Below, in pieces: positions 584-23,655 of a stretch of 23,655 nt of DNA; within the stretch, counting starts at the first letter, position 1, and every line of letters begins with the position of its first letter. Both the position numbers and the translations under genes were made by a program. The stretch is from a virus, in IMG/VR virus record IMGVR_UViG_3300030107_004326, positions 1 to 23,655 of that record. One strand, given 5' to 3'. Under the pieces are notes generated by a model that was not told the origin of the DNA, did not search any database, and saw only the letters and a program-made list of their open reading frames with translations.

Positions 584-585
584 AA

Positions 586-10451: not shown

Positions 10452-10464
10452 AAGGGATGAAACA

Positions 10465-10677
10465 ATGCAGAGATACACTTACAAGGTCACAGGTGATTTC
10501 GGTTCTGAGGTCGGAACAGTGACCGACAACCGCACAGGTGAGATTGTAAAACAATGGAAAGGCTCCGGCCCAGGCAACATTTCTGTGCAAGTTGCATGTG
10601 TGAATGAAGTGAAATACCAGATGCACAGGTTCAGTCCTGCTGCAATGGAATACTGGCAAACGCAACGCGACAAATGA
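10465..10677 (+). CDS. Early protein of unknown function (70 aa)
   Basis: ATG 10465 follows GAAAGGGATGAAACA. The product is a 70-residue basic alpha/beta protein: MQRYTYKVTGDFGSEVGTVTDN, then TGEIVKQWKGSGPGNISVQVACVNEVKYQMHRF. The layout of a short sheet followed by a helix is common in small phage proteins. No family is identified. The next ribosome-binding site overlaps its stop codon. Confidence 0.7.
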   Translation: MQRYTYKVTGDFGSEVGTVTDNRTGEIVKQWKGSGPGNISVQVACVNEVKYQMHRFSPAAMEYWQTQRDK

Positions 10678-10688
10678 AAGGGATGCAC

Positions 10689-10964
10689 ATGAGCGATCAA
10701 GGACCGGGATACGTTGTCTTTCACAGAACATGGTGGCGCAAAAACGCAGATTGGCCTCGCGGTCTGGAGCCTTACCTCGGCAACAAGACCAAAATATGCC
10801 ATACCAAGACCGAGGACGAAGCGCGGGAAGAGTGCCACAAATGGAACTTCAGCTTCAACCTGTGCCGCACGCACTACAAGAAGGATAAGGAACTCGGGCG
10901 AAAGGCCGAGTACATCAGAGCCGATCTGTACAAGCGTCGGCAAGGACCGCAGACAGGCGACTGA
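10689..10964 (+). CDS. Early protein of unknown function, basic (91 aa)
   Basis: ATG 10689 sits after GAAAGGGATGCAC. The 91-residue product is basic and aromatic: YVVFHRTWWRKNADWPRGLEPYLGNKTKICHTKTEDEAREECHKWN, then FNLCRTHYKKDKELGRKAEYIRADLYKRRQG. The 'TEDEAREECHKWNF' helix after a short sheet resembles small phage proteins that bind nucleic acid or a partner protein, but no family is recognised. Three cysteines and two histidines are not in a clear zinc-finger spacing. Confidence 0.7.
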   Translation: MSDQGPGYVVFHRTWWRKNADWPRGLEPYLGNKTKICHTKTEDEAREECHKWNFSFNLCRTHYKKDKELGRKAEYIRADLYKRRQGPQTGD

Positions 10965-10988
10965 CCTTCAAAATGAAAGGGATTCAAC

Positions 10989-11432
10989 ATGACTACTCAA
11001 GACACACTCACTTCCTTCTCTTCCTCCTGCATCGCCAGGGAAAACTGCCAGAGGTCTGGCAACACCGAATGGCTGGAGCGGCACGGCGAACGTCTCCTTC
11101 AGCTCATGGATTCGGTGTGCGGCGCGGGTCTTCATGTCACCCTGAATCTTGACATGACCACCATGAGCGGGTCGGACGATGACCCCGAAGTCCTCGTCTT
11201 CGACGTTCTCCACGCGATGATGACCGAGCATGGCATGCATGATGGTAGTTTTCAAATGACCATCCTTGTCCGGCCTGGATTCATCGCTCCCAACATCACG
11301 GTCGAGTGCGACGAAGAAGGCTTCGCGGATCGTTGGCCTGACCGGGATCTGGACCGCGAACAGGACTATGTGGTCGAGATGCTGCTGGAGCGACTCCGAC
11401 AGCCTGCGCCTCCGCATCCGGTCATCACCTAA
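10989..11432 (+). CDS. Early protein of unknown function, acidic (147 aa)
   Basis: ATG 10989 follows GAAAGGGATTCAAC. The 147-residue product is acidic and alpha/beta. The N-terminus is Ser/Cys-rich, followed by the helix NTEWLERHGERLLQLMDSV, strands (LHVTLNLDMTTM; FQMTILVRPGF) and a C-terminal helix QDYVVEMLLERLRQPAPP. No catalytic motif is visible. It is the last gene before a terminator-like hairpin, which marks off the first block of early genes. Confidence 0.75.
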   Translation: MTTQDTLTSFSSSCIARENCQRSGNTEWLERHGERLLQLMDSVCGAGLHVTLNLDMTTMSGSDDDPEVLVFDVLHAMMTEHGMHDGSFQMTILVRPGFIAPNITVECDEEGFADRWPDRDLDREQDYVVEMLLERLRQPAPPHPVIT

Positions 11433-11451
11433 ACTACATCCCCTTCAGCCC

Positions 11452-11482
11452 CCACACCCCTTCGCGGGGTGTGGAGGGTTTT
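11452..11482 (+). terminator. Internal early terminator or attenuator
   Basis: A perfect 9-bp stem, CCACACCCC (11452-11460) with GGGGTGTGG (11466-11474), 5-nt loop TTCGC, then AGGG and four T (11479-11482). The short T tract suggests partial termination, so the genes from the methyltransferase onward could be expressed less than the first six. Confidence 0.7.
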
Positions 11483-11499
11483 CTCGATTAGAGGACACC

Positions 11500-12081
11500 A
11501 TGAACAAAAGAGTGCTGGTGGCATGTGAATACAGCGGACGAGTCCGCAACGCATTTACGGCGCGTGGTTGGGATGCGACATCCTGCGACCTGTTGCCGAG
11601 CGACACGCCTGGCAGGCACATCATTGGCGATGTGGCCGACCTGCTCGATGATGGATGGGATGCGATGATCTGTTTCCCACCCTGCACGCACCTTGCGGTG
11701 AGCGGTGCGAGGTGGTTCAAAGAGAAGCGTGCAGACGGCAGGCAGCAGCGTGCGCTTGAGTTTGTGCGGCTGCTGATGGATGCACCGATCCCGCACATTG
11801 CGCTCGAAAATCCTGTGTCGATCATATCTTCTGAGATCCGCAAGCCCGACCAGATCGTCCAGCCGTGGATGTTTGGTCACGGTGAAACGAAGAAAACGTG
11901 CCTTTGGCTCAAGAACCTCCCCCCCTTGGTGCCGACAGAAGTCGTTGATGGCAGGGAACAGCGCGTTTGGAAGATGCCGCCAAGCGATGACCGCTGGAAA
12001 CAGAGGAGCCTTACATACGCGGGAATTGCAGAGGCAATGGCATCGCAGTGGACACGGCACATGGAGACGATCAATGAATGA
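11500..12081 (+). CDS. Cytosine-C5 DNA methyltransferase-like protein, short
   Basis: A 193-residue protein starting at ATG 11500 with AGAGGA upstream. Motif I-like VLVACEYSG (5-13) would bind S-adenosylmethionine; GDVADLL (43-49) and DGWDAMICFPPC follow, with the Pro-Cys dipeptide of motif IV at 61-62 (Cys62, expected nucleophile) and ALENP (101-105), the motif VI Glu. The later QxRxR motif and target-recognition domain of full enzymes are missing; full C5 enzymes are usually over 300 aa. The C-terminus (MPPSDDRWKQRSLTYAGIAEAMASQW) matches a phage subfamily I recognise. A likely role is modifying phage DNA against restriction. Confidence 0.75.
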   Translation: MNKRVLVACEYSGRVRNAFTARGWDATSCDLLPSDTPGRHIIGDVADLLDDGWDAMICFPPCTHLAVSGARWFKEKRADGRQQRALEFVRLLMDAPIPHIALENPVSIISSEIRKPDQIVQPWMFGHGETKKTCLWLKNLPPLVPTEVVDGREQRVWKMPPSDDRWKQRSLTYAGIAEAMASQWTRHMETINE

Positions 12082-12250
12082 ACAAATCTACAAGGGACTC
12101 GCAACCATCTATCGCGGACTGACGCTGAAGCACGATCCGAATGTGCTGGCCGCTAGGAAGTGGATGAAAGAAGTTGCTGAGGAGTGGGAGCAGGGAAAAG
12201 TAAAGCCTGCACGCCCGACCCGACGATGCAGATATTGTGGTCAGCGATGA
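12074..12250 (+). CDS. Small basic protein with CxxC (58 aa)
   Basis: ATG 12074 overlaps the methyltransferase stop by eight bases. The 58-residue product is helical (IYKGLATIYRGLTLKHDPNVLAARKWMKEVAEEWEQGKVK) with a basic tail RRCRYCGQR holding a single CxxC. A lone CxxC could bind zinc in a dimer. Translation is presumably coupled to the methyltransferase. No family is recognised. Confidence 0.65.
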   Translation: MNEQIYKGLATIYRGLTLKHDPNVLAARKWMKEVAEEWEQGKVKPARPTRRCRYCGQR

Positions 12251-12261
12251 GGAGGCCCACG

Positions 12262-12378
12262 ATGTACGAGGTGATCCGATTCGTCGAGATGCTTGCACTG
12301 CTTGCAGGCGTGGCGTTTTTTGGAACAATGCTTGTGACACTCATGATCGAGTGCGGCAAGCGCAACGGATTCTATTGA
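12262..12378 (+). CDS. Small single-pass membrane protein (38 aa)
   Basis: I chose ATG 12262 because AGGAGG at 12249-12254 lies seven bases before it; the in-frame ATG at 12247 precedes that site. The product MYEVIRFVEMLALLAGVAFF... has one hydrophobic helix at about residues 8-28 and a short basic tail (ECGKRNGFY). Small membrane peptides like this are common in phage early regions, e.g. as superinfection or host-takeover factors, but no role can be assigned. Confidence 0.6.
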   Translation: MYEVIRFVEMLALLAGVAFFGTMLVTLMIECGKRNGFY

Positions 12379-12389
12379 AAGGGAACGAA

Positions 12390-12641
12390 ATGAATGAGGA
12401 AATGATTGAAGCGCACTTTCACGCTGGGCTTGACCAGTGCGCGGACAGCATCACCAAGATGAGCAGGCCGCATCGGTGCCCAAGTCCAGGCGAGGTCGCG
12501 GGAATGCTCACCGGGATCATGGGGTACGTCCTGCTCAAAACCAACGCAACCGATGCCAAGAAGATCGTTGACTGGTGTTGGAAGATGGCCGAGGAGGGAT
12601 CAATCGAAATGTACGAGCAGAACGGTGGTGAAGATGTGTGA
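12390..12641 (+). CDS. Early protein of unknown function (83 aa)
   Basis: ATG 12390 follows GAAAGGGAACGA. The 83-residue product is helical and acidic: EEMIEAHFHAGLDQCADSITKM, then PSPGEVAGMLTGIMGYVLLKTNATDAKKIVDWCWKMAEEGSIEMYEQ. It looks like a four-helix protein. No family is recognised. It overlaps the next start by eight bases. Confidence 0.7.
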   Translation: MNEEMIEAHFHAGLDQCADSITKMSRPHRCPSPGEVAGMLTGIMGYVLLKTNATDAKKIVDWCWKMAEEGSIEMYEQNGGEDV

Positions 12642-12915
12642 CATTGAGCAGCGGTATGTCTGTCCATCCGTGATCACAACGATATACACCAGCGGCGAGT
12701 TGAAGGGTGCGATGTACCGTGGCTTCTTCATCACGATTACCCGTGTTGATTACGACATCGAAGAGTTTGGTGCATCAAACTCTAAACTCGAAGCTGAGTA
12801 TGTGGAGCTTGTCCCGCGGCCAATGTGCAAACGCCGTATCGGCAGCATCGAGGTCAGCCCTTACTCTGCGAGCTACGAAGAGTGCGCCGCGTGGATTGAC
12901 GAGAATCTTCTATGA
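12634..12915 (+). CDS. Early protein of unknown function (93 aa)
   Basis: ATG 12634 lies inside the end of the previous gene (GGTGGTGAAG just upstream). The 93-residue product starts MCDIEQRYVCPSVITTIYTSG and is mainly beta (GAMYRGFFITITRVDYD; EAEYVELVPRP), with a C-terminal helix (SYEECAAWIDENLL). No catalytic or metal motif is clear. It is coupled on both sides, sharing ATGATG with the next gene. Confidence 0.7.
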   Translation: MCDIEQRYVCPSVITTIYTSGELKGAMYRGFFITITRVDYDIEEFGASNSKLEAEYVELVPRPMCKRRIGSIEVSPYSASYEECAAWIDENLL

Positions 12916-13334
12916 TGACCACTATGGATACACCTGATCTGACCAGCCTGCTCTTGTTCCTGGCCGAAGCTCAGAAGGACGTGCTGGCCGCCACCTTGGT
13001 CGAGCGCATTCCTTCACCGGGCGAGGACGAGGACGGTGACCCGCGCACACTCATGCGCAGTATGCGTGCGAGCATCGAGGTTCTCATCGACCTTGAAGCG
13101 CGAATCGACATGCTGGAGTTGGCTGCGGAAACGGTGCCGAACGACTGGACACCGAAGCAGTACGCGGCTCATCTGCGGGGTTCGCTTCTGGCTGCGGTCC
13201 AGGACCGCGACAACTTTGTGAGCGAGTCGGTGACATTCACGATGTACAAGCACGCACGGCTGCGGTCGATAAGTTGGTGCGCCGATCAGCTCGATGACCT
13301 TGGAGCAAAATACAGCGAGGGCTTCGATGAATGA
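12912..13334 (+). CDS. Early helical protein of unknown function (140 aa)
   Basis: The start is ATG 12912 in an ATGA overlap; a further in-frame ATG at 12915 is equally close. The 140-residue product is almost fully helical and acidic: TSLLLFLAEAQKDVLAATLVERI, SPGEDEDGDPRTL, MRASIEVLIDLEARIDMLELAAETV, then QDRDNFVSESVTFTMYKHARLRSISWCADQL. No known domain. It overlaps the small gene at 13331. Confidence 0.7.
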   Translation: MMTTMDTPDLTSLLLFLAEAQKDVLAATLVERIPSPGEDEDGDPRTLMRSMRASIEVLIDLEARIDMLELAAETVPNDWTPKQYAAHLRGSLLAAVQDRDNFVSESVTFTMYKHARLRSISWCADQLDDLGAKYSEGFDE

Positions 13335-13492
13335 AGGATTGGACAAATCAGCAGATACGGGACCAGCACAGAGCTTTTGTTCTGGATCACTATCGGTCGT
13401 TCATGGATGCGGCAAAGATGGTTGCCAAAATGACTGGCCGCGACCTAGAGACTGTGCTGGATGTACTCGCCGAAGAAAGGGAAACGTCGTGA
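13331..13492 (+). CDS. Small helical protein (53 aa)
   Basis: ATG 13331 overlaps the end of the gene before by four bases (ATGA). The 53-residue product reads MKDWTNQQIRDQHRAFVLDH, then YRSFMDAAKMVAKMTGRDLETVLDVLAEERETS. It is a clean helical, charged protein, much more plausible than the frame beside it (13327 onward), which yields Cys/Arg-rich nonsense. Its last helix ends over GAAAGGGA, the ribosome-binding site of the next gene. 'AAKMVAKMTGRDLETVLDVLAEE' resembles a short HTH-like pair, but no family is claimed. Confidence 0.75.
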   Translation: MKDWTNQQIRDQHRAFVLDHYRSFMDAAKMVAKMTGRDLETVLDVLAEERETS

Positions 13493-13644
13493 TTGGACTC
13501 TACGCACTAATCGTCATGGCCGTGTTGCTCGGAATGTGCATGGGCATGGTCGTGTCGGGAATCGTTGCCGAGTGGGGCGAGGCGAACGGTTTGGTTGAAC
13601 TGGAACAAGGCGAGAAACATGGACAAGGAAAGCAAACTGACTGA
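13489..13644 (+). CDS. Small single-pass membrane protein (51 aa)
   Basis: GTG 13489 overlaps the previous TGA (GTGA) and has GAAAGGGA at 13475-13482, seven bases upstream. The product starts MIGLYALIVMAVLLGMCMGM and is hydrophobic to about residue 27, followed by a polar tail (EWGEANGLVELEQGEKHGQG). The start decides the topology: a short membrane anchor with a cytoplasmic or periplasmic tail. A longer reading of this frame from 13327 is rejected. No function is recognised. Confidence 0.7.
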   Translation: MIGLYALIVMAVLLGMCMGMVVSGIVAEWGEANGLVELEQGEKHGQGKQTD

Positions 13645-13804
13645 AGCACTTTGCGAGTTGTATCGAGAGTGCAAGGGCTTGGACCTCAACGAGTGGAAGG
13701 TGTTCTTCCCTGGGTCAGCCAAGCAAATCGCGGAGATCCAACAGACTCTCCGCAAAATCGAAAGGGCAAGTAATGAATCAGCAGATCACTACCACAAGGC
13801 GTGA
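13619..13804 (+). CDS. Early protein of unknown function (61 aa)
   Basis: ATG 13619 lies inside the end of the previous gene, with AAGGCGAG upstream. The 61-residue product is helical: MDKESKLTEALCELYRECKG, then FFPGSAKQIAEIQQTLRKIERASNE. Its 3' end overlaps the recombinase start by 32 bases. A helical early protein coupled to a recombination gene could be an accessory factor, but this is only context. Confidence 0.65.
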   Translation: MDKESKLTEALCELYRECKGLDLNEWKVFFPGSAKQIAEIQQTLRKIERASNESADHYHKA

Positions 13805-14624
13805 GCCGGAACTCCCGGTTGGCGAGGTTGCAAAGTATTTCGTGCAGTCGGGCATGTTCCCGGACACAAAGCAGCTTGCGACTGCTGCAACTAAACTCAT
13901 CGTCGGGCGCGGCTTGGGACTCAGCGACTATGACTGCATGGGTGGATTGCACATCATTCAGGGCAAGGCCGTGTTGGCTAGCAACGCGATGAGCGCGGCG
14001 ATCAAGGCCAGTGGCAAGTACGAGTACCGTGTTGTCGAGCAGTCGGAAGAGAAGTGTGTCATCGACTTCTACATGGTGAACGGTGGCAAGCTCGGCGACA
14101 AGATTGGCTCGACCACTTGGACGATGGAGAAGGCGAAGAGAGCGGGGTTGAACGGTCAGAACTGGAAGAAGTACCCGGAGGCCATGTTGTTCGCCCGTGC
14201 GATCAGCGAGGGATACCGGACTCACTGCCCCGACGCGCTCGGCTGCTCTGCTCCTGTATACGTCGAGGCGCACGGTGAGTCGGAGATTCCTGGCCGAGAG
14301 CCGCAGATCGTTGACACCACCGCAACTGTGGTCGAGGAGCAGATCGAAAAGCGGAAGAACAAGGAGATCGAGCGCATGACCTTGCAGGGCCGTCACATCG
14401 AGAGTGTCGAGAATGCAAGCTCTGGACAGTACAAGTGGTTCATCATCACTGTTGAAGGTGATGATCGGAAGTTCACCACATTCAGCCAGACGATGAGCAA
14501 GGTTGCTCGATCGGCAAAGCACGACAAAATCATGTGTGACGTTGAAGTCGTGTTGAACGAGAAGCCGAACGGTGACCAGTATTGGAACCTCGCTGAAATC
14601 GAAGCAACACAGGAGGTGGTGTGA
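13773..14624 (+). CDS. RecT-like single-strand annealing protein with extra C-terminal domain
   Basis: A 283-residue protein, ATG 13773 after GAAAGGGCAAGTA. Residues 15-175 carry the pattern of phage RecT-family annealing proteins: AKYFVQSGMFPDTKQLATAATKLIVGRGLGLSDYDCMGGLHIIQGKAV in pieces, then STTWTMEKAKRAGL and WKKYPEAMLFARAISEGYRTHCPDAL. These proteins pair complementary single strands during phage recombination. From about residue 205 a second domain (WFIITVEGDDRKFTTF ... DVEVVLNEKPNGDQYWNLAEIE) looks like an OB-fold, perhaps for ssDNA. The Gp157-like gene follows by one-base overlap. The RecT call is by pattern, not search. Confidence 0.65.
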   Translation: MNQQITTTRREPELPVGEVAKYFVQSGMFPDTKQLATAATKLIVGRGLGLSDYDCMGGLHIIQGKAVLASNAMSAAIKASGKYEYRVVEQSEEKCVIDFYMVNGGKLGDKIGSTTWTMEKAKRAGLNGQNWKKYPEAMLFARAISEGYRTHCPDALGCSAPVYVEAHGESEIPGREPQIVDTTATVVEEQIEKRKNKEIERMTLQGRHIESVENASSGQYKWFIITVEGDDRKFTTFSQTMSKVARSAKHDKIMCDVEVVLNEKPNGDQYWNLAEIEATQEVV

Positions 14625-15118
14625 TGCCGACCCTCTACGAACTGAGTGCAGACCTTCAGTTTCTTCTCGACCTTGCCGATCAAGAGGGAGGTGACGAGTC
14701 TATTGAGCAGGCACTTGACGAGATCCAAGGACAGATTTCGGAAAAGGCTGAGAGCATCGGCAAGATTGTTCGTGAGCTTGAAATTACTGCCGAAGGCCGA
14801 CGCAAGGAGGCTGATCGTCTGGTGCATCGTGCGAATGTTGCCGAGAAGGCTGCGAAGCGTGCCTTGGATTACCTGGAGCAGAACATGCGCTTGATTGGCA
14901 TGAAGACCTTGGAGACCAAGAGTTTCAAGTACACTCGCGCCAAGAACGGTGGCAAGCAGCCGATTGAAATCAACGAAGACATTGTGCCCGACGATTACAA
15001 GGTCGAGAAGGTGCAAACCAAAATCAACCGTGAGCGCATCCGCAAGGAGATGGAGTCAGGCAACAAGTTGCCGTTCGCTCAGTTTCAGGAGCGCGGCGAA
15101 CGATTCATAATGAACTGA
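14624..15118 (+). CDS. Siphovirus Gp157-like protein
   Basis: I chose ATG 14624 because AGGAGGT (14611-14617) lies six bases upstream; GTG 14621 is too close. The 164-residue product is a long charged coiled coil (IEQALDEIQGQISEKAESIGKIVRELEITAEGRRKEADRL) followed by RALDYLEQNMRLIGMKTLETKSFKYTRAKNGGKQPIEI and VPDDYKVEKVQTKINRERIRKEME. This is the full Gp157 family layout (pfam05565), found in phage replication or recombination modules beside annealing proteins and thought to aid phage resistance or recombination. The exact activity is unknown. Confidence 0.85.
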   Translation: MPTLYELSADLQFLLDLADQEGGDESIEQALDEIQGQISEKAESIGKIVRELEITAEGRRKEADRLVHRANVAEKAAKRALDYLEQNMRLIGMKTLETKSFKYTRAKNGGKQPIEINEDIVPDDYKVEKVQTKINRERIRKEMESGNKLPFAQFQERGERFIMN

Positions 15119-15140
15119 CATCCTCATTGAAAGGGACTTC

Positions 15141-15440
15141 ATGAGCTACCAGCCAGACTTGACCAAACTTTTTCCCGACAGGTACAAGCAACCGAAATCA
15201 GATGCAATGACCGAAGACACGAAGAGACAGATTCACGAATACTTTGCGACTGGCCGGGTTCCAGATCAATTCGTCCTCGCAATTCTTCAGAACGATTTGT
15301 TCGGCGCACTCGGTCATGGCTACGACCAGGTTGGTTCACTGTTTTCGATCATGAAACACTTGCATGAAAACGCTCCTCCGAACTCACATGGAAGTCCGCA
15401 GATCGTTTCAGCGTGGATGGAACAGGGTGGGTTGTCGTGA
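15141..15440 (+). CDS. Conserved-looking phage protein of unknown function (99 aa)
   Basis: ATG 15141 follows GAAAGGGACTTC. The 99-residue product has the segment MTEDTKRQIHEYFATGRVPD, then FVLAILQNDLFGALGHGYDQVGSLFSIMKHLHENAPPNSHGS. I have the impression that this 'I-x-x-Y-x-x-x-GR-x-PD-x-F-x-x-A-x-L-x-ND-L' pattern recurs in small phage proteins in replication or recombination regions, without a known function. Its stop overlaps the GTG of the replication gene. Confidence 0.75.
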   Translation: MSYQPDLTKLFPDRYKQPKSDAMTEDTKRQIHEYFATGRVPDQFVLAILQNDLFGALGHGYDQVGSLFSIMKHLHENAPPNSHGSPQIVSAWMEQGGLS

Positions 15441-16234
15441 GCAAAAAACTTCCCGCCATCCAGTTCTATACAGGCGACTGGCTCAAGGACGAGGGGGTGA
15501 ACCTTTCGTCCCTCGCGGCCCAAGGACTCTGGATAAACATGCTCTGCTACATGAACGCTTCACCCGTTCGGGGCACTCTTGCCAAGGCGAACGGTGAGGC
15601 GATGACCGTTGAGGACTTGGCCCACCTTGTACGAATAAGCGTGAAGGATTGCCAAGCCCTGTTGGATGAGCTGACCCGTAACAACGTGCCATCGCTCGAC
15701 TTGAACGGTTCGATTCCCATGTACACTAGCCGAAGGATGCTTGCTGATGAAAGGGTGCGGCAAAGGTGTGCCGAAGGTGGTCGCAAAGGGGGGGGCAACC
15801 CCACCTTCAAAACCCAAGGCCAAAGTGTGAGTGAAAGGTTGAAGGGGTCTTCATCTTCATCTTCAATTTCATCTTCAACTTCAACTTCATCTTCAACTTC
15901 GATATATATACCTCCCGAAAAGGTTGGTTCGATGTATGGCTCAAATGTTCAAGATGCCGCAGAGCAAGTCTGGTTGACGATCCCGGCCAAGAGGCGGCGG
16001 CAGCCATCGACCACGAAGAAGGCGATTCAAGTTGCCATAGGCCAGGAAATCGAAGATTACGACAACTTGGATGATGTTGTACGGCATTTGAGTGATTCCG
16101 TGTCCGCCTACTACCGTTCGCCGGAAGGTGAAGGCGGCTACTACGTCTATCCAGCCAAGTTCTTCGACGAGGAACGGTACAAGGAAGCGAAAGAGGCCTG
16201 GAACGGGCGTGAGAAAGCGAGGAACGGATTGTGA
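15437..16234 (+). CDS. Replication initiation protein-like (winged-helix, DnaD/O type)
   Basis: A 265-residue protein with GTG start in a GTGA overlap. The N-terminus LPAIQFYTGDWLKDEGVNLSS, then AQGLWINMLCYMNAS and VEDLAHLVRISVKDCQALLDEL, is the familiar N-terminal winged-helix of phage replication proteins ('P-x-x-x-Y-x-x-DWL-x-D'), which bind the origin. A Ser/Thr run (about residues 137-155) separates it from a C-terminal domain (IPAKRRRQPSTTKKAIQVAIGQEI; GGYYVYPAKFFDEERYKEAKEAW). That domain would recruit the helicase or its loader. No helicase gene is visible in the window, so the phage probably uses the host's. Confidence 0.7.
   Translation: MSKKLPAIQFYTGDWLKDEGVNLSSLAAQGLWINMLCYMNASPVRGTLAKANGEAMTVEDLAHLVRISVKDCQALLDELTRNNVPSLDLNGSIPMYTSRRMLADERVRQRCAEGGRKGGGNPTFKTQGQSVSERLKGSSSSSSISSSTSTSSSTSIYIPPEKVGSMYGSNVQDAAEQVWLTIPAKRRRQPSTTKKAIQVAIGQEIEDYDNLDDVVRHLSDSVSAYYRSPEGEGGYYVYPAKFFDEERYKEAKEAWNGREKARNGL
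15847..15901 (+). repeat. TCWTCA microsatellite coding a Ser/Thr linker
   Basis: About nine imperfect copies of a 6-nt unit (TCTTCA, with TCAACT and TCAATT variants) inside the replication gene. They code almost only Ser and Thr, forming a flexible linker between its two domains. Such a run could expand or contract by slippage. Confidence 0.85.
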
Positions 16235-16698
16235 GTGAAACATGGATGTCGAACCGAATCCTGATCAACGGACTCTGGCCCGAAGCGGATTTCACTGAGT
16301 CTGAGAAGGAGTTGTTCAACAAGGCGTTCGAGAATCTGAACCAGGAATGGCTCAAGGAAGCAATCGAGCAAGCCGCGATGAACAACGTTGGGCGCAAACC
16401 CTACGTTAAATGGATCAAGGCAGAGTTCAGGAAGGTGAAGGAAGGACACACCCCAGCAGACTTCAGGAAGGACATTCACCGAAAGGCTGAAACACCTGCC
16501 GAGTATGAAGAGCAGTTCAATCATGCGCGTGCGTACATCAGGAAGTTTCCCAAGGACACACTTGAGGAGTGCGCAAAAATTGTCCGCAAAAAGACAAGTC
16601 TGACCGTTGATGTAGCCGAAGACGTGGATACATGGAGCAAAATAGCCGTTTCCATGATGGCAACGGTCCTCGAACAGAAAGGGTATGCACATGGCTGA
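16231..16698 (+). CDS. Replication-module protein of unknown function (155 aa)
   Basis: GTG 16231 overlaps the replication gene stop (TTGTGA). The 155-residue product is helical: WPEADFTESEKELFNKAFENLNQEWLKEAIEQAAM, GRKPYVKWIKAEFRKVKEGH, EEQFNHARAYIRKFPKDTLEECAKIV. 'P-x-K-W-I-x-x-E-F' after a helix resembles small phage proteins next to DnaD-like initiators, so a helicase-loader or primosome accessory role is plausible. No ATPase motif is present. The end overlaps the next gene, whose GAAAGGG site lies at 16677. Confidence 0.65.
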   Translation: MSETWMSNRILINGLWPEADFTESEKELFNKAFENLNQEWLKEAIEQAAMNNVGRKPYVKWIKAEFRKVKEGHTPADFRKDIHRKAETPAEYEEQFNHARAYIRKFPKDTLEECAKIVRKKTSLTVDVAEDVDTWSKIAVSMMATVLEQKGYAHG

Positions 16699-16864
16699 AC
16701 TACAAGTACCACGCGAAATCAAGCGACTCCTGTCCAACATGGTGCTAGACGGTCTGCTGACTTACGAAAGGAATGCGAACGGTGAACCAGTGTTCAAAAT
16801 CACCGACGCGGGCAAATCAGCAGTTGAAGAGTGGATGTTGGAGCTTGATGCAGATGCCGATTGA
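16691..16864 (+). CDS. Small winged-helix-like protein (57 aa)
   Basis: ATG 16691 after GAAAGGGTATGCAC. The 57-residue product reads MAELQVPREIKRLLSNMVLD, then GLLTYERNANGEPVFKITDAGKSAVEEWMLEL. Helix, 'DGLLTYE' turn, strand 'GEPVFKITDAGK' and final helix match the wing half of a winged-helix DNA-binding domain. It could regulate transcription or assist replication. The two upstream ATGs around 16684 and 16691 recall the ATGCACATG cassette used earlier. Gene identity is good; function is inferred. Confidence 0.7.
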   Translation: MAELQVPREIKRLLSNMVLDGLLTYERNANGEPVFKITDAGKSAVEEWMLELDADAD

Positions 16865-17174
16865 CCTGGCCGACAAGATCGTGAAGGAACACTGGACAGA
16901 CCCAAACTCAGATGTCGGTGTGTTGCGACAAAAGGTCTGGAATGCTTGCGAGGAGATACTGAACGAGAAAAATGTTGCGTGGGATGATCTGCAAAAATCG
17001 AGGACACAAGAAGCAATCAAAGCGAGACAGCATGTTTGCGGGTTTATATACCTTGTCCTCAGAGACCGGATGTCTGAAGTCGAAATGGCAAAGTGGGTGG
17101 GCATGGGCCGCACCACGTTCAGGTACAACCGAGTTTCATTTTTCGAGAAACACCGTGAGCAGATACCAGCGTGA
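16854..17174 (+). CDS. HTH protein, DnaA domain IV-like
   Basis: A 106-residue protein. ATG 16854 and ATG 16848 are both in frame; GGAG at 16840 fits either. The second half, KARQHVCGFIYLVLRDRMSE then VEMAKWVGMGRTTFRYNRVSFFEKH, resembles the C-terminal DNA-binding domain of DnaA: helix with 'ARQ...YL', 'S-x-x-E-(I/M)-(A/G)' and 'R-T-T'. Phage proteins of this kind may bind an origin or a promoter. The N-terminal half (LADKIVKEHW...LRQKVWNACEEIL) is helical. A generic HTH regulator is the alternative. It overlaps the winged-helix gene by about 11 bases. Confidence 0.65.
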   Translation: MPIDLADKIVKEHWTDPNSDVGVLRQKVWNACEEILNEKNVAWDDLQKSRTQEAIKARQHVCGFIYLVLRDRMSEVEMAKWVGMGRTTFRYNRVSFFEKHREQIPA

Positions 17175-17580
17175 GAAGGGTAAACGGGTGGAACGGGCGG
17201 CGGCTCACGCATGGACGCGAGTCACGGGAGCCGCCGCTCACCGTTCGCAACAATTCTGCGGACGAGACGGTGATGGCGACATCAAGGCTCAGGATGGAAT
17301 CCATTTCGAGGTCAAAGCACGCAAGAAAATTGCGTGCGTTCGCTTTTTAGAGCAAGCCAAATCTGATTGCAAGGACGGTGATGTGCCGATAGTCATCATG
17401 AAGGAAGATCGTGGGCCGTTCCTCGTTCTCCTTGATCTTGATGACCTCCAGAAATTCGTGGAGTTGATAGGTGCAGTGCGAGACCGGGTGCAAGAAAAAG
17501 ACAGATGTGTGGACAGTGGTCCAGACAATTGTGCTGACAGCGACAGCAGCGGGGATCTTCCTGACAGTCGGAAGGCGTGA
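17155..17580 (+). CDS. PDDEXK nuclease, Holliday-junction-resolvase-like
   Basis: A 141-residue protein from GTG 17155. The start follows from the family layout: KGKRVERAAAHAW with Glu13, then QQFCGRDGDGDI with Asp42 and IHFEVK with Glu52 and Lys54, the metal-binding E...D...ExK set. EQAKSDCKDGDVPIVIMKE and GPFLVLLDLDDLQKFVEL follow, as in the phage resolvase-like family. It would cut branched DNA made during replication or recombination. The last 36 residues (from about 106; rich in Asp, Ser, Cys) overlap the next gene out of frame and look like a passenger tail rather than part of the fold. Confidence 0.8.
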   Translation: MSRYQREKGKRVERAAAHAWTRVTGAAAHRSQQFCGRDGDGDIKAQDGIHFEVKARKKIACVRFLEQAKSDCKDGDVPIVIMKEDRGPFLVLLDLDDLQKFVELIGAVRDRVQEKDRCVDSGPDNCADSDSSGDLPDSRKA

Positions 17581-17743
17581 TCAGGAAATCACATTCAACA
17601 CAGAACGGATAGTAGAGCTTCGACAAATCAGCACCGACCTGGTTCGATCACAAGTTCTCTCCGAAGCCAATGACCAGAACCACGCCGCAGCACTAGACGA
17701 TCTGAAGCGGCGAATTGAAAAACTTGAAGACATTGGTGGCTGA
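17471..17743 (+). CDS. Membrane protein with coiled-coil tail (90 aa), spanin- or holin-like
   Basis: GTG 17471 has GGAG seven bases upstream. The gene lies 110 bases inside the nuclease. Residues 13-33 (VWTVVQTIVLTATAAGIFLTV) form one membrane segment, and the rest is a charged coiled coil (ITFNTERIVELRQISTDLVRSQVLSE ... ALDDLKRRIEKLEDIGG). One membrane anchor plus a coiled coil is the layout of an i-spanin, and also of small phage holin-associated proteins. An alternative start is GTG 17507. Function is inferred only from layout and from three neighbouring membrane genes. Confidence 0.65.
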   Translation: MQCETGCKKKTDVWTVVQTIVLTATAAGIFLTVGRRDQEITFNTERIVELRQISTDLVRSQVLSEANDQNHAAALDDLKRRIEKLEDIGG

Positions 17744-17744
17744 G

Positions 17745-17948
17745 ATGATTGAGAAACTCAGCGAGGTCGCCCTGTCACTAGCTGCACCGTTCGTTCTCGG
17801 CGTGTTTGGGTTTTTGTGGCGCGTGAACTCAAAGATCAGCAGCATTGAGGCGCAACTTAAAGCGCATGACGGACGTATTACATCCAATTCGCACAAACTC
17901 AACACGCACTTTGAAAAAGCATTCACGATCAGAAAGGACAAAGACTGA
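17745..17948 (+). CDS. Membrane protein with coiled-coil tail (67 aa)
   Basis: ATG 17745, one base after the previous stop. The product MIEKLSEVALSLAAPFVLGV then FGFLWRVNSKISSIEAQLKAHDGRITSNSHKL is one membrane helix (about 8-24) followed by a coiled coil ('SKISSIEAQLKAHDGRI'). It has the same plan as the gene before, so the two may be an ancient duplication or two parts of one membrane complex. The stop overlaps the next ATG (TGATG). A holin, spanin or holin regulator is possible. Confidence 0.65.
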   Translation: MIEKLSEVALSLAAPFVLGVFGFLWRVNSKISSIEAQLKAHDGRITSNSHKLNTHFEKAFTIRKDKD

Positions 17949-18331
17949 TGCGGTGCCTCAACTGTCTTTGGCTTTTCTGTGTTAGCGCGTTTTTGTTGAA
18001 CGGGTGCGCCTTCACGACAAAGGTGCCATCTATGACGGGAAAAGCGACAGAGGTGATGACCCAGGCAGCAGCATCACCACACAATCTGAGCGTATTGAGT
18101 GTAACAGGTGGACTCTGCCTGATCGCTGGAATGGCCCTGCTTGTTGTGACCTCCGGGCGCAAGGGGTGGTATCCAGTAATTGGCGGAATCATTCTTGTTG
18201 TTCTCAATTTTCTGGTGGCGGAGTACAGCCACTACATCTTCATCCCGCTGACCGTATGCAGCGCGATGATCTCCGCAGCCTGGACCTATCGAACGGTCAG
18301 GCAACTCATTCAGGAGAAGAAATCAAAATGA
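17948..18331 (+). CDS. Putative lipoprotein with three further membrane segments (127 aa)
   Basis: ATG 17948 in a TGATG overlap. The N-terminus MRCLNCLWLFCVSAFLLNGC is a signal sequence ending in an LNGC lipobox (acylated Cys20 expected). The downstream part carries three hydrophobic stretches at about 48-68 (LSVLSVTGGLCLIAGMALLV), 74-94 (YPVIGGIILVVLNFLVAEY) and 95-115. Multi-pass lipoproteins are unusual; most o-spanins are short and have no membrane segment. It may be a holin, or the lipobox may not be used. A basic tail (RQLIQEKKSK) ends it. Confidence 0.65.
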   Translation: MRCLNCLWLFCVSAFLLNGCAFTTKVPSMTGKATEVMTQAAASPHNLSVLSVTGGLCLIAGMALLVVTSGRKGWYPVIGGIILVVLNFLVAEYSHYIFIPLTVCSAMISAAWTYRTVRQLIQEKKSK

Positions 18332-18465
18332 CTTCTATTCTCGCAACTGGTTTTTTTGGAACGGTGTGGGGAATGTCCCTTCTCACCGTTGGTTCGTTTC
18401 TCGCAGGCGTGATGTTCCGAGATTGGTTTCTTAAGATCATCACGGGTGGAAAGTGGATGAAGTAA
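18328..18465 (+). CDS. Small single-pass membrane protein (45 aa)
   Basis: ATG 18328 in an ATGA overlap, AGGAG upstream. The product MTSILATGFFGTVWGMSLLT then VGSFLAGVMFRDWFLKIITGGKWMK has one hydrophobic helix through about residue 30 and a basic C-terminus. Its size and hydrophobicity would suit a class II/III holin or an antiholin. It is the fourth membrane gene in a row. No endolysin is recognisable beside it. Confidence 0.65.
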   Translation: MTSILATGFFGTVWGMSLLTVGSFLAGVMFRDWFLKIITGGKWMK

Positions 18466-18971
18466 TGATCAACACGCCCATCTACATGCTAGCGTTGTTT
18501 GGTGGCACCTCCGGGGATGGATGGGCCATTGATTACACAACAACTGTTGAAGGCCCAAGGGTTGTCGTTGAAGGAACAGCCCACCTCTATTTCGAGTCTC
18601 ATAGCGACAGCCCTTGCCTTCAATATGAATTTGAAGTCCCTGAAGGTCGGATTGCAGGACCAGTCATCTCAAGTGACCCTGGACAAGCAATGATGAAATT
18701 TGACCATGTGACACATGAGCAAAAGTCGGTCTGTATCGACTGGTGCGATCAAGCAAGCCCTGGCATCCAAACCATGCCATGCGCCCTACCGTTGAACTTT
18801 GTGTTTTACATCATCAAGGACACCTTCGGACCAGATGATGTGCCGAAGCTGCTTGCGGAGTGGGGCGATACGGACAGTTCGTGGGATCTGAACCTCGACG
18901 GAACGGTCGATGGTCTGGATCTTGCGATTCTGTTGGGCAGTTGGGAAACGCAAGATGGCGGAACGCCGTAG
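18465..18971 (+). CDS. Protein with C-terminal dockerin-like domain
   Basis: A 168-residue protein. ATG 18465 overlaps the previous TAA; ATG 18453 in the same frame is possible. The last 48 residues read FGPDDVPKLLAEWGDTDSSW, then DLNLDGTVDGLDLAILLGSWE. 'DLNxDGxVDGxDLxxLLGxWG' with a preceding 'DVxxLLAxWG' is the calcium-binding pair of planctomycete-type dockerin repeats, and Asp/Asn positions of the EF-hand-like loop are present. The first 120 residues are beta-rich with three Cys and no known domain; only a weak hydrophobic start (PIYMLALFGG) is seen, so export is uncertain. A host-derived or host-attaching protein is likely. Confidence 0.75.
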   Translation: MINTPIYMLALFGGTSGDGWAIDYTTTVEGPRVVVEGTAHLYFESHSDSPCLQYEFEVPEGRIAGPVISSDPGQAMMKFDHVTHEQKSVCIDWCDQASPGIQTMPCALPLNFVFYIIKDTFGPDDVPKLLAEWGDTDSSWDLNLDGTVDGLDLAILLGSWETQDGGTP

Positions 18972-19731
18972 AGCAAAGATAGCAGCGATCAGTTGTACCC
19001 ATGCACCGTTCACACCGCCAGAAACAAAGCGGTGGGTGCTGGACACTCTTTCAGATATTCCAGGCATCACACATTTCGGACATCTCGGTGACGTGTTCGA
19101 GGGTGCTGCCGCATCCATCCATGCCAACGAATACAGCCACGATCTCGAAGACGAATTTGAGGCCGGGGCAAAACTGCTGCACGACATCCGACACGTCCTG
19201 CCATCTGACTGCAACCTGTGGGTCAACACCGGGAATCACGACGACAACCTCATCACCGAAGATCCGCGCCGGGTGCCCAAATCCCTACGCTCTCTGACCA
19301 ACTGGAACGATCACCCGGAGTTCGGGGAGGAGTTCAAACGGTGGACCTGGCTGCCATACTCCAAATCCAAGGAAGCGATCTACCGTGTGGGGCAAGTACA
19401 CTTTTGGCACGGCTTCGATGCTGGCGCATCGTCCTGTGAACTCGAAGGCATCCAGATGATTTCGCTGGGTGGGTGGATACCCCATTCCCTGGCCGTTCGC
19501 GGACACACACACCGTCCAATCCCGCCTACACAAGCCTACCGCACCAAAAGGATTCCGCTGCCCTACTACTACGCGAATGTTGGAACCTGCGGACCCCTCA
19601 ACCCGGAATGGGCCAAGAGAAAAGACACCAGTTTATGGGGAACCGCTATTCTGGTGGTCGATGCTATATGGGACAAGCCGAGTCGCCTGAATGGTAAGTG
19701 TTGGGAAGCGCAGCTTTTAAGGATGCCATGA
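18955..19731 (+). CDS. Metallophosphoesterase (calcineurin-like), first metal motif altered
   Basis: A 258-residue protein from ATG 18955. Motifs of the calcineurin-like phosphoesterase fold appear in order: ISCTH (12-16), GHLGDVFEG (42-50), NTGNHDDN (91-98), FWHGFD (150-155) and VRGHTHRP (181-188). The expected first motif is D-x-H; here the Asp position is Cys14. Phage members hydrolyse phosphate esters or nucleotides, or act in DNA metabolism. The altered Asp could lower or change metal use. The gene starts 17 bases inside the dockerin gene and is coupled to the acidic protein after it. Confidence 0.8.
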   Translation: MAERRRAKIAAISCTHAPFTPPETKRWVLDTLSDIPGITHFGHLGDVFEGAAASIHANEYSHDLEDEFEAGAKLLHDIRHVLPSDCNLWVNTGNHDDNLITEDPRRVPKSLRSLTNWNDHPEFGEEFKRWTWLPYSKSKEAIYRVGQVHFWHGFDAGASSCELEGIQMISLGGWIPHSLAVRGHTHRPIPPTQAYRTKRIPLPYYYANVGTCGPLNPEWAKRKDTSLWGTAILVVDAIWDKPSRLNGKCWEAQLLRMP

Positions 19732-19928
19732 CAATCACGCCAGCCGAAAAGTTCAAGGAGGAAGCAGCCAAAATGGTCCGGTATTGGGCCATCGAATTTG
19801 AGCTTGAACACTGGACGATGGCAGGGGTGATGATGGATGTTGCCATGGATATCTTGTACCGTGAAGCCACTGTCACCGTTGATGATGACGAGGACGAGGA
19901 CGAGGACGATGAGGACGAGGATGAGTAG
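19728..19928 (+). CDS. Small protein with polyacidic tail (66 aa)
   Basis: ATG 19728 overlaps the previous stop, with AAGGA upstream. The N-terminal 47 residues are helical (AEKFKEEAAKMVRYWAIEFELEHWTMAGVMMDVAMDILY) and the C-terminus is a 15-residue run of only Asp and Glu. The gene right after codes a strongly basic protein, so the two may bind each other. Alternatively the tail may mimic DNA or bind a basic host protein. Neither is shown. Confidence 0.65.
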   Translation: MTITPAEKFKEEAAKMVRYWAIEFELEHWTMAGVMMDVAMDILYREATVTVDDDEDEDEDDEDEDE

Positions 19929-20206
19929 TGGCGAAGAAAAAAACCACACCATCTTGGAAGAGCGACGGGGCCAGGTCGCACCGTTCACGACTTGAAAAAA
20001 TGACCGATAGGTCAGTGGTTCAGGCGCACCGGGGAGGGATAGTCATCGTCGAAGAGGTGGTCATGCTCAGTGAGCGAATCAGCCATGAGGACAAGCTCGA
20101 TGTGAGATATGCGCTTGAACTCATTGCCGATTGCATGGGAGTGGCGCACAAACGGTTGCAGGTCGAAAAAAAGAAAACGAAGAAAACAACTGCGAAGAGA
20201 CGATAG
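19928..20206 (+). CDS. Small basic protein (92 aa)
   Basis: GTG 19928 shares its first base with the TAG of the acidic gene. The 92-residue product starts MAKKKTTPSWKSDGARSHRS, has a middle domain (IVIVEEVVMLSERISHEDKLDVRYALELIADCMGV) and ends KKKTKKTTAKRR. It is basic at both ends with a helical core, as expected of a nucleic-acid-binding or partner protein. It lies two genes before the sigma-like gene. No family is recognised. Confidence 0.65.
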   Translation: MAKKKTTPSWKSDGARSHRSRLEKMTDRSVVQAHRGGIVIVEEVVMLSERISHEDKLDVRYALELIADCMGVAHKRLQVEKKKTKKTTAKRR

Positions 20207-20207
20207 A

Positions 20208-20558
20208 ATGAGCAGTGAAGAAAAGCATGTTGACCCCCCCTCGCTCCCGGATATCTCAGGGGGTAAGGGGGGGCTTTCGCTTAATGACCGCGAATCGCTC
20301 CGCATGATCAAGCAGGCGGTGACGAACGGATGGGACATCCCCGATGAGTGGAAGGGCGCGTTGCCTGGACTCTGCATGACAATTGCGATGGATGACCTGC
20401 GCGGCGACCGGGAACGGTTGCGTGCTGTCGAGATTCTCCGCGCAATGCAGCGCGACAACCTCGACGCGGCGCAGGTACTCGACAAGGTGGAACGGCTGGA
20501 TGTTGGGCAGGCCACCGAGCGTATCGAGCTTGGACCTATCGAATGGAAGCCACAGTAA
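20208..20558 (+). CDS. Terminase-region protein, possible small terminase
   Basis: A 116-residue protein from ATG 20208, two bases after the previous stop. The start is followed by a C-rich/G-rich hairpin (see 20234). The rest is helical: LSLNDRESLRMIKQAVTNGW, IPDEWKGALPGLCMTIAMDD, then RERLRAVEILRAMQRDNLDAAQVLDKVERL. 'W-x-IP-x-E...A-x-x-IL-x-A-x-x-x-x-N-L' resembles small helical proteins in front of terminase large subunits. A small-terminase role is plausible but not shown. Confidence 0.6.
   Translation: MSSEEKHVDPPSLPDISGGKGGLSLNDRESLRMIKQAVTNGWDIPDEWKGALPGLCMTIAMDDLRGDRERLRAVEILRAMQRDNLDAAQVLDKVERLDVGQATERIELGPIEWKPQ
20234..20273 (+). other. C7/G7 hairpin inside the 5' end of the terminase-region gene
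   Basis: Seven C (20234-20240) pair with seven G (20267-20273), and inside CTCCC (20244-20248) pairs with GGGGG (20259-20263). It begins 26 bases after the start codon and codes the PPSLPDISGGKGG part of the protein. It could slow ribosomes or polymerase, or reduce translation of the downstream genes. Transcript termination is less likely because no T tract follows. Confidence 0.7.
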
Positions 20559-21046
20559 AAAAAGATCACTTGGCTGACGCTACGCACAAATGGACCGCTA
20601 TGCGCCTGGCTTCGTTCCCACTTTGGGAGTTTGATGACATATGGGATGAGGCGTATTTGCAAGCAACACACATCTTGCATTTGTGGGATTCTGGCCGGGG
20701 TAGCCTGTATCGTTTTCTGAAACTTCGCCTATACGAGCGAGTCAGGCCACAATACCTCAAAGACTTAGGGCGAGTGCCAACAAGAAAAAGGGCAAACGGT
20801 CGAAAAGGCAAATACGAAACCAGGACAAGCTATCAACTGGCTCAACCATTACATGACAACATGGAAATACCCTACGTAAACAAGGAGCCATTTGAAATGC
20901 CCAAGGGCATGAAGCCAGAGGAGCAGCGCACTCTGGATCACATGATGCGGGGTCTGACTCAGCAGCAGGTGGCCTACGCCGAGGGAGTGTCAGAAAGCGC
21001 AATCAGTCAAAGGCTCAAGCGCATGAGATCCCGCCTGTATGATTGA
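20543..21046 (+). CDS. Sigma-70-like transcription factor
   Basis: A 167-residue protein from ATG 20543, 16 bases inside the previous gene. Residues 29-76, WEFDDIWDEAYLQATHILHL then WDSGRGSLYRFLKLRLYERVRP, match sigma region 2 (the 'DD-x-x-x-E...W-D-x-x-RGS-x-x-x-FL-x-x-R' pattern that binds RNA polymerase and the -10). Residues 127-167, RTLDHMMRGLTQQQVAYAEG then VSESAISQRLKRMRSRLYD, match region 4's HTH. The basic linker between them is short and regions 1 and 3 are absent, as in ECF-type factors. A late-gene sigma is likely; a small-terminase HTH is the main alternative. Confidence 0.7.
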   Translation: MEATVKKDHLADATHKWTAMRLASFPLWEFDDIWDEAYLQATHILHLWDSGRGSLYRFLKLRLYERVRPQYLKDLGRVPTRKRANGRKGKYETRTSYQLAQPLHDNMEIPYVNKEPFEMPKGMKPEEQRTLDHMMRGLTQQQVAYAEGVSESAISQRLKRMRSRLYD

Positions 21047-22259
21047 CACAATGAGGCCAGCACTCAAACTTCCGCCCCCATACCAGAAGCAATATGAAGC
21101 CATCTGTGACCCGGCTCGTATTGTGGTCATCGAGGCCAGCACCAAATCAGGCAAGACAGCAGGATGCCTGATGTGGATGCTCCAGCTTGCATGGAACAGC
21201 GGACCTGGCCGGACCTACTGGTGGGTCGCTCCCATTTACGCGCAGGCCAAGAACATCGGCTTCATCCGCATGAAGAACCTGCTGAAGCAGGCCGACCCGG
21301 ACAAGCGCATCTGGCACTCACATGAGGGTGACCTCTGGATCGAGCTTCACAACGGTTCGCGCATCTGGTTCAAGGGTGCCGACAATCCCGACAGCTTGTA
21401 TGGCGAGGATGTGTATGGGGCTGTCGTTGACGAAGCATCGCGTTGCAAGGAGGATGCCTGGATTGCTGTCCGCTCCACACTCACTGCAACACAAGGCCCG
21501 GTCAGGATCATCGGCAATGTGAAGGGTCGCCGGAACTGGGCCTACCTGCTGGCGCGACTTGCCGAGGGTGGCGAGTCGAACATGGCCTACCACAAGCTGA
21601 CTGCCTACGACGCGGTTGAGGGCGGCATCCTCGCCGTTGACGAGGTTGAGTCCGCAAAGCGCATTCTGCCCGACCACATATTTCGAGAGCTTTACCTGGC
21701 CGAGCCTTCCGACGATGGTGGCAACCCCTTTGGAATTGCTGCTATCGAGAAGTGCATTCAGCCGATGTCTATACAGCCGCCCGTCTGTTTCGGGGTCGAT
21801 CTCGCCAAGTCCGTGGACTACACGGTTGTTGTCGGTTTGGACGATGAAGGTAGGGTAGCAACTTGTGAACGCTGGCAAGGTACAGATTGGAAAACCACGA
21901 TTGAGCGAATACATCGATTGGTCGGAGATGAACGATGCCTTGTGGACTCGACTGGACTCGGTGATCCAGTCGTGGAGCAACTTCAGGAACACATGCCACA
22001 GGTCGAAGGATTCAAATTCAGCGCGTCTTCAAAGCAGCAGCTTATGGAAGGCCTGGCGCAAGCAATTAGCAAGCAGGACATCGGCTACCCTGACAACTGG
22101 CTCAGGACCGAGTTGGACATCTTTGAATACGAACACACGAGAACCGGAGTCAGGTACACCGCTCCCTCAGGCTCGCACGACGATGGCGTTTGTGCGTTGG
22201 CTCTGGCTGTCCGCGCTCAAGCGCAACTGAGTACCGGATTCTCCTTTAGGGTCTTTTGA
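21039..22259 (+). CDS. Terminase large subunit
   Basis: A 406-residue protein from ATG 21039 (overlapping the sigma-like stop by eight bases); ATG 21051 is also in frame. The ATPase domain has EASTKSGKT (32-40, Walker A variant, Lys39), then YGAVVDEAS (Walker B, Asp131-Glu132). The nuclease domain has FGVDLAKSVDYTVV (near 263), DSTGLGDPVVEQL (near 305) and GSHDDGVCALALA (near 385), the three RNase H-like acidic motifs. It packages DNA into the prohead and cuts it. The length, a little over 400 aa, is within the range for terminases of this kind. Confidence 0.92.
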   Translation: MIDTMRPALKLPPPYQKQYEAICDPARIVVIEASTKSGKTAGCLMWMLQLAWNSGPGRTYWWVAPIYAQAKNIGFIRMKNLLKQADPDKRIWHSHEGDLWIELHNGSRIWFKGADNPDSLYGEDVYGAVVDEASRCKEDAWIAVRSTLTATQGPVRIIGNVKGRRNWAYLLARLAEGGESNMAYHKLTAYDAVEGGILAVDEVESAKRILPDHIFRELYLAEPSDDGGNPFGIAAIEKCIQPMSIQPPVCFGVDLAKSVDYTVVVGLDDEGRVATCERWQGTDWKTTIERIHRLVGDERCLVDSTGLGDPVVEQLQEHMPQVEGFKFSASSKQQLMEGLAQAISKQDIGYPDNWLRTELDIFEYEHTRTGVRYTAPSGSHDDGVCALALAVRAQAQLSTGFSFRVF

Positions 22260-23655
22260 TGCTGCAACAAATCAAGTCACTGTTCAATCCCAAGGAATAC
22301 TTCAATTCCTCTATCCGGCTACTGGAGCGAGGCGGTCGGCATGGTTCGACTACACCGCCTTTCTCGTATCGTCACTCGGTCAACGAGTTTCGATCATGGG
22401 TCTACGCGGCTGCGATGATCAACGCCAATGCGGTTGCGGCCACTCCGCTGCGACTCTATGCGCGAAGGTCGGTGGGCAAAAAGGGGTTGTGGCGAACCAG
22501 GCCTGTCAGCCGGAAGCGGCTCGACTACTTGAACGGTGAGCTTGGTGGTGACCACGCGCCATCCCGCGCAGTGATGACCAAGGTGATGGACCTTGGTGAT
22601 GACATGGAAGAGATCACCGAGATGCACCCGGTGAAGGAGCTGTTGCAGAAGGCAAACCATGTCTACAATGGCTTCGACCTCACAGTGCTGCGGACGCTCT
22701 ATCAGGAGTTGACTGGCAACGCTTACCTGCACCCTATCCTTGACCAGCAGCTTGGCATCCCGGTCGAGCTTTGGCCCATGCCGCCGCAGTGGATGCAGGT
22801 GATCCCATCCCGCGAGAACTTCATCGAGGGCTACAGCTATGGCCGGACTGATGTCGAGGCTCTGCGCTTCGAGGTCGATGAGGTCGTCCACTTCAAGCGG
22901 CCCAACCCTGACAACCTGTTCTATGGGCTGGGCAAGGTCGAAGCAGCATGGGGAACGGTGCAAGCCAACCGGGCAGTGCATGAGATGGACCTGGCAACCT
23001 TCGAGAATCACGCGAGGCCGGACTATGCGGTGATCGTGAAGGGTCCGCACAAGCGCACCGACCTCGACCTGTTCGAGCAGCATGTGTCAGAGCGTCTGCG
23101 CGGTACTCGCAAGGCTGGTCAGTTCCTCGCCATGTCGGGCGATGTGAACCTGATGCCTTTGAACTTCCCGCCCAAGGACTTGAACGGTAGGGAAGAGATC
23201 GTCGAGGAGATCGCAGCAGTCTTTGGCGTGCCTGTCTCGATGCTCAAGGCGAACGACCCGAACCTGGCTTCTGCGCGTGCTGGCTTTGCTCAGTGGCGTG
23301 AGTCCACCATCCTGCCCATGCTGCGTATGGATGAGGATGTGCTGAACCAGACCTTGCTGCCCATGTTTGGCATCGAAGAGGATGCCTGCCTCGCGTATGA
23401 CAACCCTGTCCCGGCTGACAAGGAGTACGAGTTGCGCGAGCGACAGGCTGCTGTCTCTGGCGGATGGCGCACTGCGAATGAGGCACGCAAGGAGGAGGGC
23501 AAGGAAGAGGTTGACGAGGAAATGGCTGACGCACTGATGGTCGGCGGTATGCCGCTCGGTGCTGCCGCTGGTCTTGGGATGGGCATGGGTATGGGCATGG
23601 GTATGCCTCCAATGCCTATGGGCAACGGTGCGCCTTTGCCGCCAGGGCCGGAGGA
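22259..23655 (+). CDS. Portal protein, HK97 type, runs off the window
   Basis: ATG 22259 overlaps the terminase stop (TGATG). The frame is open to the last base: 465 whole codons, no stop, 3' end missing. Features of the Phage_portal family: NEFRSWVYAAAMINANAVAATPLRLY near the start, HPVKELLQKANHVYNGFDLT, YQELTGNAYLHP, then VDEVVHFKRPNPDNLFYGLG and REEIVEEIAAVFGVPVSMLKAND. It forms the dodecameric ring through which DNA passes. The end of the visible part is a Met/Gly/Pro run. The missing part is probably short, as most portals are 400-550 aa. Confidence 0.9.
   Translation, partial: MLQQIKSLFNPKEYFNSSIRLLERGGRHGSTTPPFSYRHSVNEFRSWVYAAAMINANAVAATPLRLYARRSVGKKGLWRTRPVSRKRLDYLNGELGGDHAPSRAVMTKVMDLGDDMEEITEMHPVKELLQKANHVYNGFDLTVLRTLYQELTGNAYLHPILDQQLGIPVELWPMPPQWMQVIPSRENFIEGYSYGRTDVEALRFEVDEVVHFKRPNPDNLFYGLGKVEAAWGTVQANRAVHEMDLATFENHARPDYAVIVKGPHKRTDLDLFEQHVSERLRGTRKAGQFLAMSGDVNLMPLNFPPKDLNGREEIVEEIAAVFGVPVSMLKANDPNLASARAGFAQWRESTILPMLRMDEDVLNQTLLPMFGIEEDACLAYDNPVPADKEYELRERQAAVSGGWRTANEARKEEGKEEVDEEMADALMVGGMPLGAAAGLGMGMGMGMGMPPMPMGNGAPLPPGPE
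23578..23622 (+). repeat. GGCATGGGTATG repeats coding a Met-Gly run in the portal
   Basis: A 12-nt unit repeats about two and a half times in frame, giving alternating Met-Gly residues, then PPMPMG. It lies in the C-terminal part of the portal and is probably a flexible, slippage-prone tail. Confidence 0.8.

Follow-up and report, generated by a model that had tools for sequence, protein, structure and literature searches.

A sigma-70 superfamily gene between the presumed small and large terminase genes in a clade of uncultured phages

What is a sigma-like gene doing among the packaging genes of a phage? The question arises from a complete uncultured-virus record of 23,655 bases, IMGVR_UViG_3300030107_004326 (the window), in which an earlier note had recognized region 2-like and region 4-like segments of sigma-70, in that order, in a 167-residue protein whose gene overlaps the terminase gene. 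The open reading frame (ORF) is present with exactly the coordinates reported in that note (Table 1). Its start overlaps an upstream ORF of 116 amino acids (aa), which ends at 20558 and is presumed to be the small terminase gene terS, by 16 nucleotides (nt), and its end overlaps the terminase large subunit gene terL, which starts at 21039, by 8 nt. The identity of terL is confirmed by matches to phrog_2 (4.4e-35) and Pfam Terminase_6N (3.8e-6). The gene order is thus presumed terS, sigma, terL, with almost no gap ahead of any of the three, and every evident gene of the window lies on the + strand. We find that the 167-aa gene is a real member of the sigma-70 superfamily with a minimal layout of the extracytoplasmic function (ECF, group IV) type, and we favor, as probable, a role for its product as a dispensable, accessory phage sigma factor over one as an obligatory late switch.

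Taken singly, the window protein matches Pfam Sigma70_r4 (6.8e-4, under the curated cut-off) and TIGR02937 (2.6e-5, 23.9 bits) over its C-terminus, and region 2 is undetectable. Single-protein searches for homologues in viral contigs, genomes, phage records and PDB were empty, and tblastn against 50,697 phage records gave no credible match and no sigma match. Relatives were instead reached through terL, which yielded 34 loci, and an iterative search upstream of terL then recovered the sigma family. When 10 family members were scanned one by one, seven matched Sigma70_r2 (best 3.5e-6) and nine matched TIGR02937, the sigma70-ECF model (best 1.1e-9). A profile built from 15 sequences is collinear with the solved Fusobacterium sigma-H structure 3mzy (whole-sequence E 1.7e-4) and places the invariant Glu36 on the glutamate of the 3mzy ‘LVQE’ motif, so that the invariant Glu of the region-2.2 ‘D/E-I-x-x-E’ signature is retained. 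This residue, which pairs with the E of ‘DLVQE’ in region 2.2, the core-binding region of known sigma factors, is one of five invariant positions in the region 2-like domain (W17, F25, W28, E36 and Y71). In the region 4-like helix-turn-helix (HTH), R136-G137 is invariant, and the linker is the least conserved part of the protein (mean pairwise identity 21%). No family member was found in a profile scan of genome contigs, and the libraries that were searched contain no description of the family. Nor was a close match found with any named ECF group; judged by its profiles, the family belongs at the superfamily level only, with no named ECF group assigned.

Structure prediction, which the earlier note had suggested as a check, points the same way. 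The AlphaFold2 model (mean per-residue confidence, pLDDT, 77; global fold score, pTM, 0.50) has two confident helical parts joined by a weak linker. In the VIA-align comparison, residues 1-75 superimpose on the region 2 domains of numerous sigma factors (top Z 8.5, root-mean-square deviation 2.1 Å over 71 residues), including residues 372-447 of Escherichia coli sigma70 and 190-255 of Thermus thermophilus sigmaA, and nearly all of the region-2 matches are sigma factors. Residues 112-167 fall on region 4 of SigD (3vfz), SigF (8jzt) and similar HTHs. The top PDB matches from Foldseek are ECF sigma complexes, but with E values above 0.01, and many of the BFVD matches are annotated as phage sigma factors. 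Because the family profiles and the predicted structure agree, we accept membership in the sigma-70 superfamily and the sigma2-linker-sigma4 layout; the order of regions described in the earlier note is therefore borne out, as is the overlap with the terminase gene.

Table 1. Positions of the sigma gene, its domains and associated features (window coordinates unless a relative is named)
Feature	Position	Strand	Description
Conserved vegetative-type promoter	9400-9425	+	TTGCGC-16-TATAAT, TG-extended -10
116-aa ORF, presumed terS	20208-20558	+	Directly 5' of sigma gene; small-terminase candidate by position
Sigma-70-superfamily protein	20543-21046	+	ATG start, 167 aa, pI 9.6, sigma2-linker-sigma4 layout
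Sigma region 2-like domain	20543-20767	+	Residues 1-75
Linker	20768-20899	+	Residues 76-119, low model confidence, no region 3
Sigma region 4-like HTH	20900-21043	+	Residues 120-167
Terminase large subunit, terL	21039-22259	+	406 aa
Region-2-only sigma genes	L015 7524-7853; L016 4351-4638		

The history of the gene bears directly on what it does. In a terL tree, the 13 loci that carry the insertion form one clade with L009 and L012 (100/100). The sigma gene is missing from L009 and L012, and from L010, a near copy of L009, but is present in their sister L013, and presumed terS and terL are intact in all three loci that lack it. In L015 and L016, an in-frame deletion has removed the linker and region 4 and left region 2; these region-2-only genes are under moderate constraint (ratio of nonsynonymous to synonymous substitution rates, dN/dS, about 0.33 between the two). 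The region-4 HTH is retained in the remaining 11 of the 13 carriers, and also in L037-L041 and L108, where homologues occur elsewhere in the genome. The simplest reading is that a single clade of uncultured phages gained the gene once, at the presumed terS/terL junction, and that some of its members later lost or truncated it. No second sigma copy turned up elsewhere when the full records of 21 relatives were searched, many of these records being fragments.

The gene has also evolved quickly. Over 11 loci, the mean identity of the sigma protein is 33%, versus 67% and 77% for its neighbors. Its frame is conserved in the other terminase loci, and its dN/dS of 0.14-0.49 (versus 0.02-0.20 for presumed terS and terL) indicates that it encodes a selected protein that is constrained but fast-evolving. 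Sigma distances across the 11 loci correlate with those of terL (r 0.75), which fits a mainly vertical, fast evolution. The window and its sister L002 differ more locally: terL is 96% and presumed terS 97% identical between them, whereas the sigma protein is only 55% identical, and the synonymous divergence (dS) of the sigma gene is near-saturated at 1.87, compared with 0.34-0.46 in the flanks, with sharp edges at the gene ends. For this pair, the edges and the near-saturated dS suggest allele (cassette) exchange at the sigma gene.

The loss and truncation of the gene in relatives make it probable that its product enhances or adjusts phage transcription and is not the only late switch. In the accessory role that we favor, the gene would have been acquired once into the presumed terS/terL junction of the clade. 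The region-2 domain of its product would bind the core polymerase of the host and melt the -10 region, the region-4 HTH would read a -35-type element, and part of the host polymerase would be diverted to phage promoters. Plausible targets are the promoters of the packaging and structural genes that would be translated together with the sigma gene. The translational overlap with both neighbors is counted in favor of this role, as is the precedent of Xpf considered below.

Several observations weigh against it. No family member reaches the curated cut-off of TIGR02937 (42.9 bits; the best relative scores 37.5 bits in a whole-record search), none was found in a characterized phage, and several of the structural Z values could be reached by helical domains through a shared arrangement alone. 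The absences in L009, L010 and L012 and the truncations in L015 and L016 belong here as well, as do family members that lie away from the packaging module (L037, L038, L039, L041 and L108), one of which, L108, also encodes a T7-type RNA polymerase (PF00940, 9e-82). Finally, the analysis turned up no alternative promoter motif that recurs, although no rigorous test was made.

The same observations bear on a stricter scheme in which the sigma factor is made from the early operon and alone recognizes the late promoters. The sigma architecture, a location where the packaging genes begin and the precedents set by PBSX Xpf and Ltr/RinA in this niche would all suit such an obligatory switch. However, close relatives with the same presumed terS and terL have no sigma gene or no region 4, the terminase genes abut without a sigma gene in about 40 further relatives, the gene lies within the packaging operon and not ahead of it, and a late promoter family was not found. 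We therefore regard an obligatory late-gene switch as unlikely.

The promoter scan gave no evidence for a dedicated late promoter. A consensus scan found four weak sigma70-like sites in window 1-12000, where 7.7 are expected by chance, and none in 11900-23655, where 5.6 are expected; such sites are fewer than in shuffled sequence. The argument that few sigma70 promoters imply a new promoter class was rejected, since counts at or below chance make promoter scarcity uninformative. The statement in the earlier note that one vegetative promoter is visible is roughly right, in that the promoter in Table 1 is conserved in a sister genome (TTGCAT-16-TATAAT), but nothing follows from the rarity of such sites. 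This promoter stands where the early genes begin, far upstream of the sigma gene.

Two further features lie 3' of this promoter. An apparently non-coding block of 129 nt (window 9434-9561), whose distance from the promoter differs in the sister genome, is 98.5% identical to positions 11327-11455 of that genome (G001), far above the identity of the coding DNA around it, and is predicted to fold as a single long hairpin (-58 kcal/mol, z -2.9). A search of Rfam found no family in the window, this block included; it could act as a structured leader RNA or represent a small mobile element. In addition, a common leader, TTTGAAAGGGATGCACATG or a closely similar form of it, is found ahead of several early genes, at 9558, 9914 and 10677 of the window and at 11657, 11834 and 12390 of the sister genome, and appears to be a shared translation-start cassette.

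The position of the gene also invites an explanation that involves no transcription, namely that a sigma-derived DNA-binding protein recognizes phage DNA through its HTH and partners a small terminase that has none. The sigma gene overlaps both presumed terS and terL, no HTH was detected in the 116-aa presumed terS, and the most divergent parts of the sigma-like protein fall outside its few invariant residues. Assignment of the 116-aa ORF as a small terminase is itself presumed, from its position and weak PHROG matches: five of 11 family members weakly match phrog_74, terminase small subunit (best E 0.037), and the ORF directly abuts terL in the roughly 40 relatives without a sigma gene. No clear small-terminase match was obtained for it by fold comparison or in Pfam, and hhalign gives a probability of only 0.4% for its alignment with the classical HTH TerS of distant relatives. 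An alternative ATG at 20109 would extend it to 149 aa. It occupies the TerS slot. No small terminase, the structural match that would have told against the reading in the earlier note, appears among the sequence and fold matches listed for the sigma-like protein, a listing that cannot exclude TerS. A role as a packaging accessory is opposed by the conservation of region 2, the core-binding domain, which is about equal to that of region 4, by the loss of region 4 and not region 2 in L015 and L016, by the intact presumed terS and terL of relatives that lack the gene, and by the homologues found away from terminases. We consider this role very unlikely.

These outlying homologues, which belong to unrelated phages, lie near DNA-metabolism genes in several records, and the one in L108 is located upstream of the T7-type RNA polymerase gene. 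A function confined to late-gene expression in terminase-linked phages therefore does not cover the family as a whole. One could suppose that the protein poaches polymerase, binding the host core via region 2 and competing against the sigma factors of the host or of rivals, while having scarcely any promoter specificity of its own, or none. The persistence of region-2-only forms under constraint in L015 and L016, the L108 homologue in a setting where a late sigma is unneeded, and a rate of evolution that fits conflict would agree with this idea, but the HTH is kept in most insertion carriers and in the outlying homologues, and the truncated forms may be no more than genes in decay. We give such a poacher hardly any credence. 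It is quite improbable, too, that the family serves to divert polymerase in general and is not a late-gene sigma, with fast-evolving members becoming region-2-only polymerase binders, as in L015 and L016, and also being used by a phage with a T7-type polymerase.

Other features of the window were noted in passing. The heptamer G GGA AAA at 1557-1563 is in phase with an ORF that ends at 1590, shortly ahead of a long coiled-coil (tape-measure-like) ORF at 1762, and the -1 frame is open to about 1777; positions 1557-1777 look like the usual frameshift of tail-assembly chaperones. The tail region also encodes a very Cys-rich protein of 476 aa (47 Cys; 5832-7262), and L039, which carries a sigma homologue, has a Cys-rich protein of 380 aa (4083-5225). 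A small phage protein at 18453-18971 contains dockerin-like calcium-binding repeats (weak match to Pfam Dockerin_1, E 0.034), and similar-looking repeats are present in a protein of the sister genome L111 (15237-16307). Dockerin-like repeats are common in Planctomycetota, and these might hint at a host from that phylum.

How, then, does this gene compare with known phage regulators? How late genes are controlled is not known for the majority of uncultured phages, and carriers of the gene, set beside relatives that have lost or trimmed it, provide a natural comparison, with and without, of what a phage sigma factor adds. The family shares with ECF (group IV, TIGR02937) factors the two-domain sigma2-sigma4 organization with a linker, but all of its members score under the curated cut-off and no anti-sigma partner was identified. 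Late sigma factors of the T4 gp55 type are small and phage-coded, and region 2 is their recognizable conserved part; the L015 and L016 forms likewise consist of region 2 only, whereas the window protein keeps its region-4 HTH. The closest parallel is in PBSX-like elements, where a sigma-like positive control factor of 172 aa, a homologue of PBSX Xpf, is encoded immediately before terS-terL and is reported to switch on late-cassette expression (PMC8347963). Xpf itself is classified as a group IV factor with sigma2 and sigma4 (PMC10141391). The window protein is likewise about 170 aa long, of the same two-domain type and encoded beside terS-terL, but Xpf precedes terS, whereas the window gene lies between presumed terS and terL, and the window family is clade-specific, fast-evolving, and lost or shortened in relatives. 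The Ltr/RinA late activators of Gram-positive phages are located upstream of terS (PMC13123087). Ltr, RinA and LtrC are similarly small regulators encoded where early genes give way to late ones, ahead of the packaging genes, but the window protein differs in having a predicted region-2 domain, which would imply core binding. The Xpf precedent shows that the mechanism proposed in the earlier note exists in nature, and with Ltr/RinA in the same niche the switch envisaged there is not the unusual one it was taken to be. A phage sigma factor beside packaging genes is already a known kind, which makes the step forward modest; what is new is the slot between presumed terS and terL, a previously undescribed sequence family, its fast evolution, and its losses and truncations.
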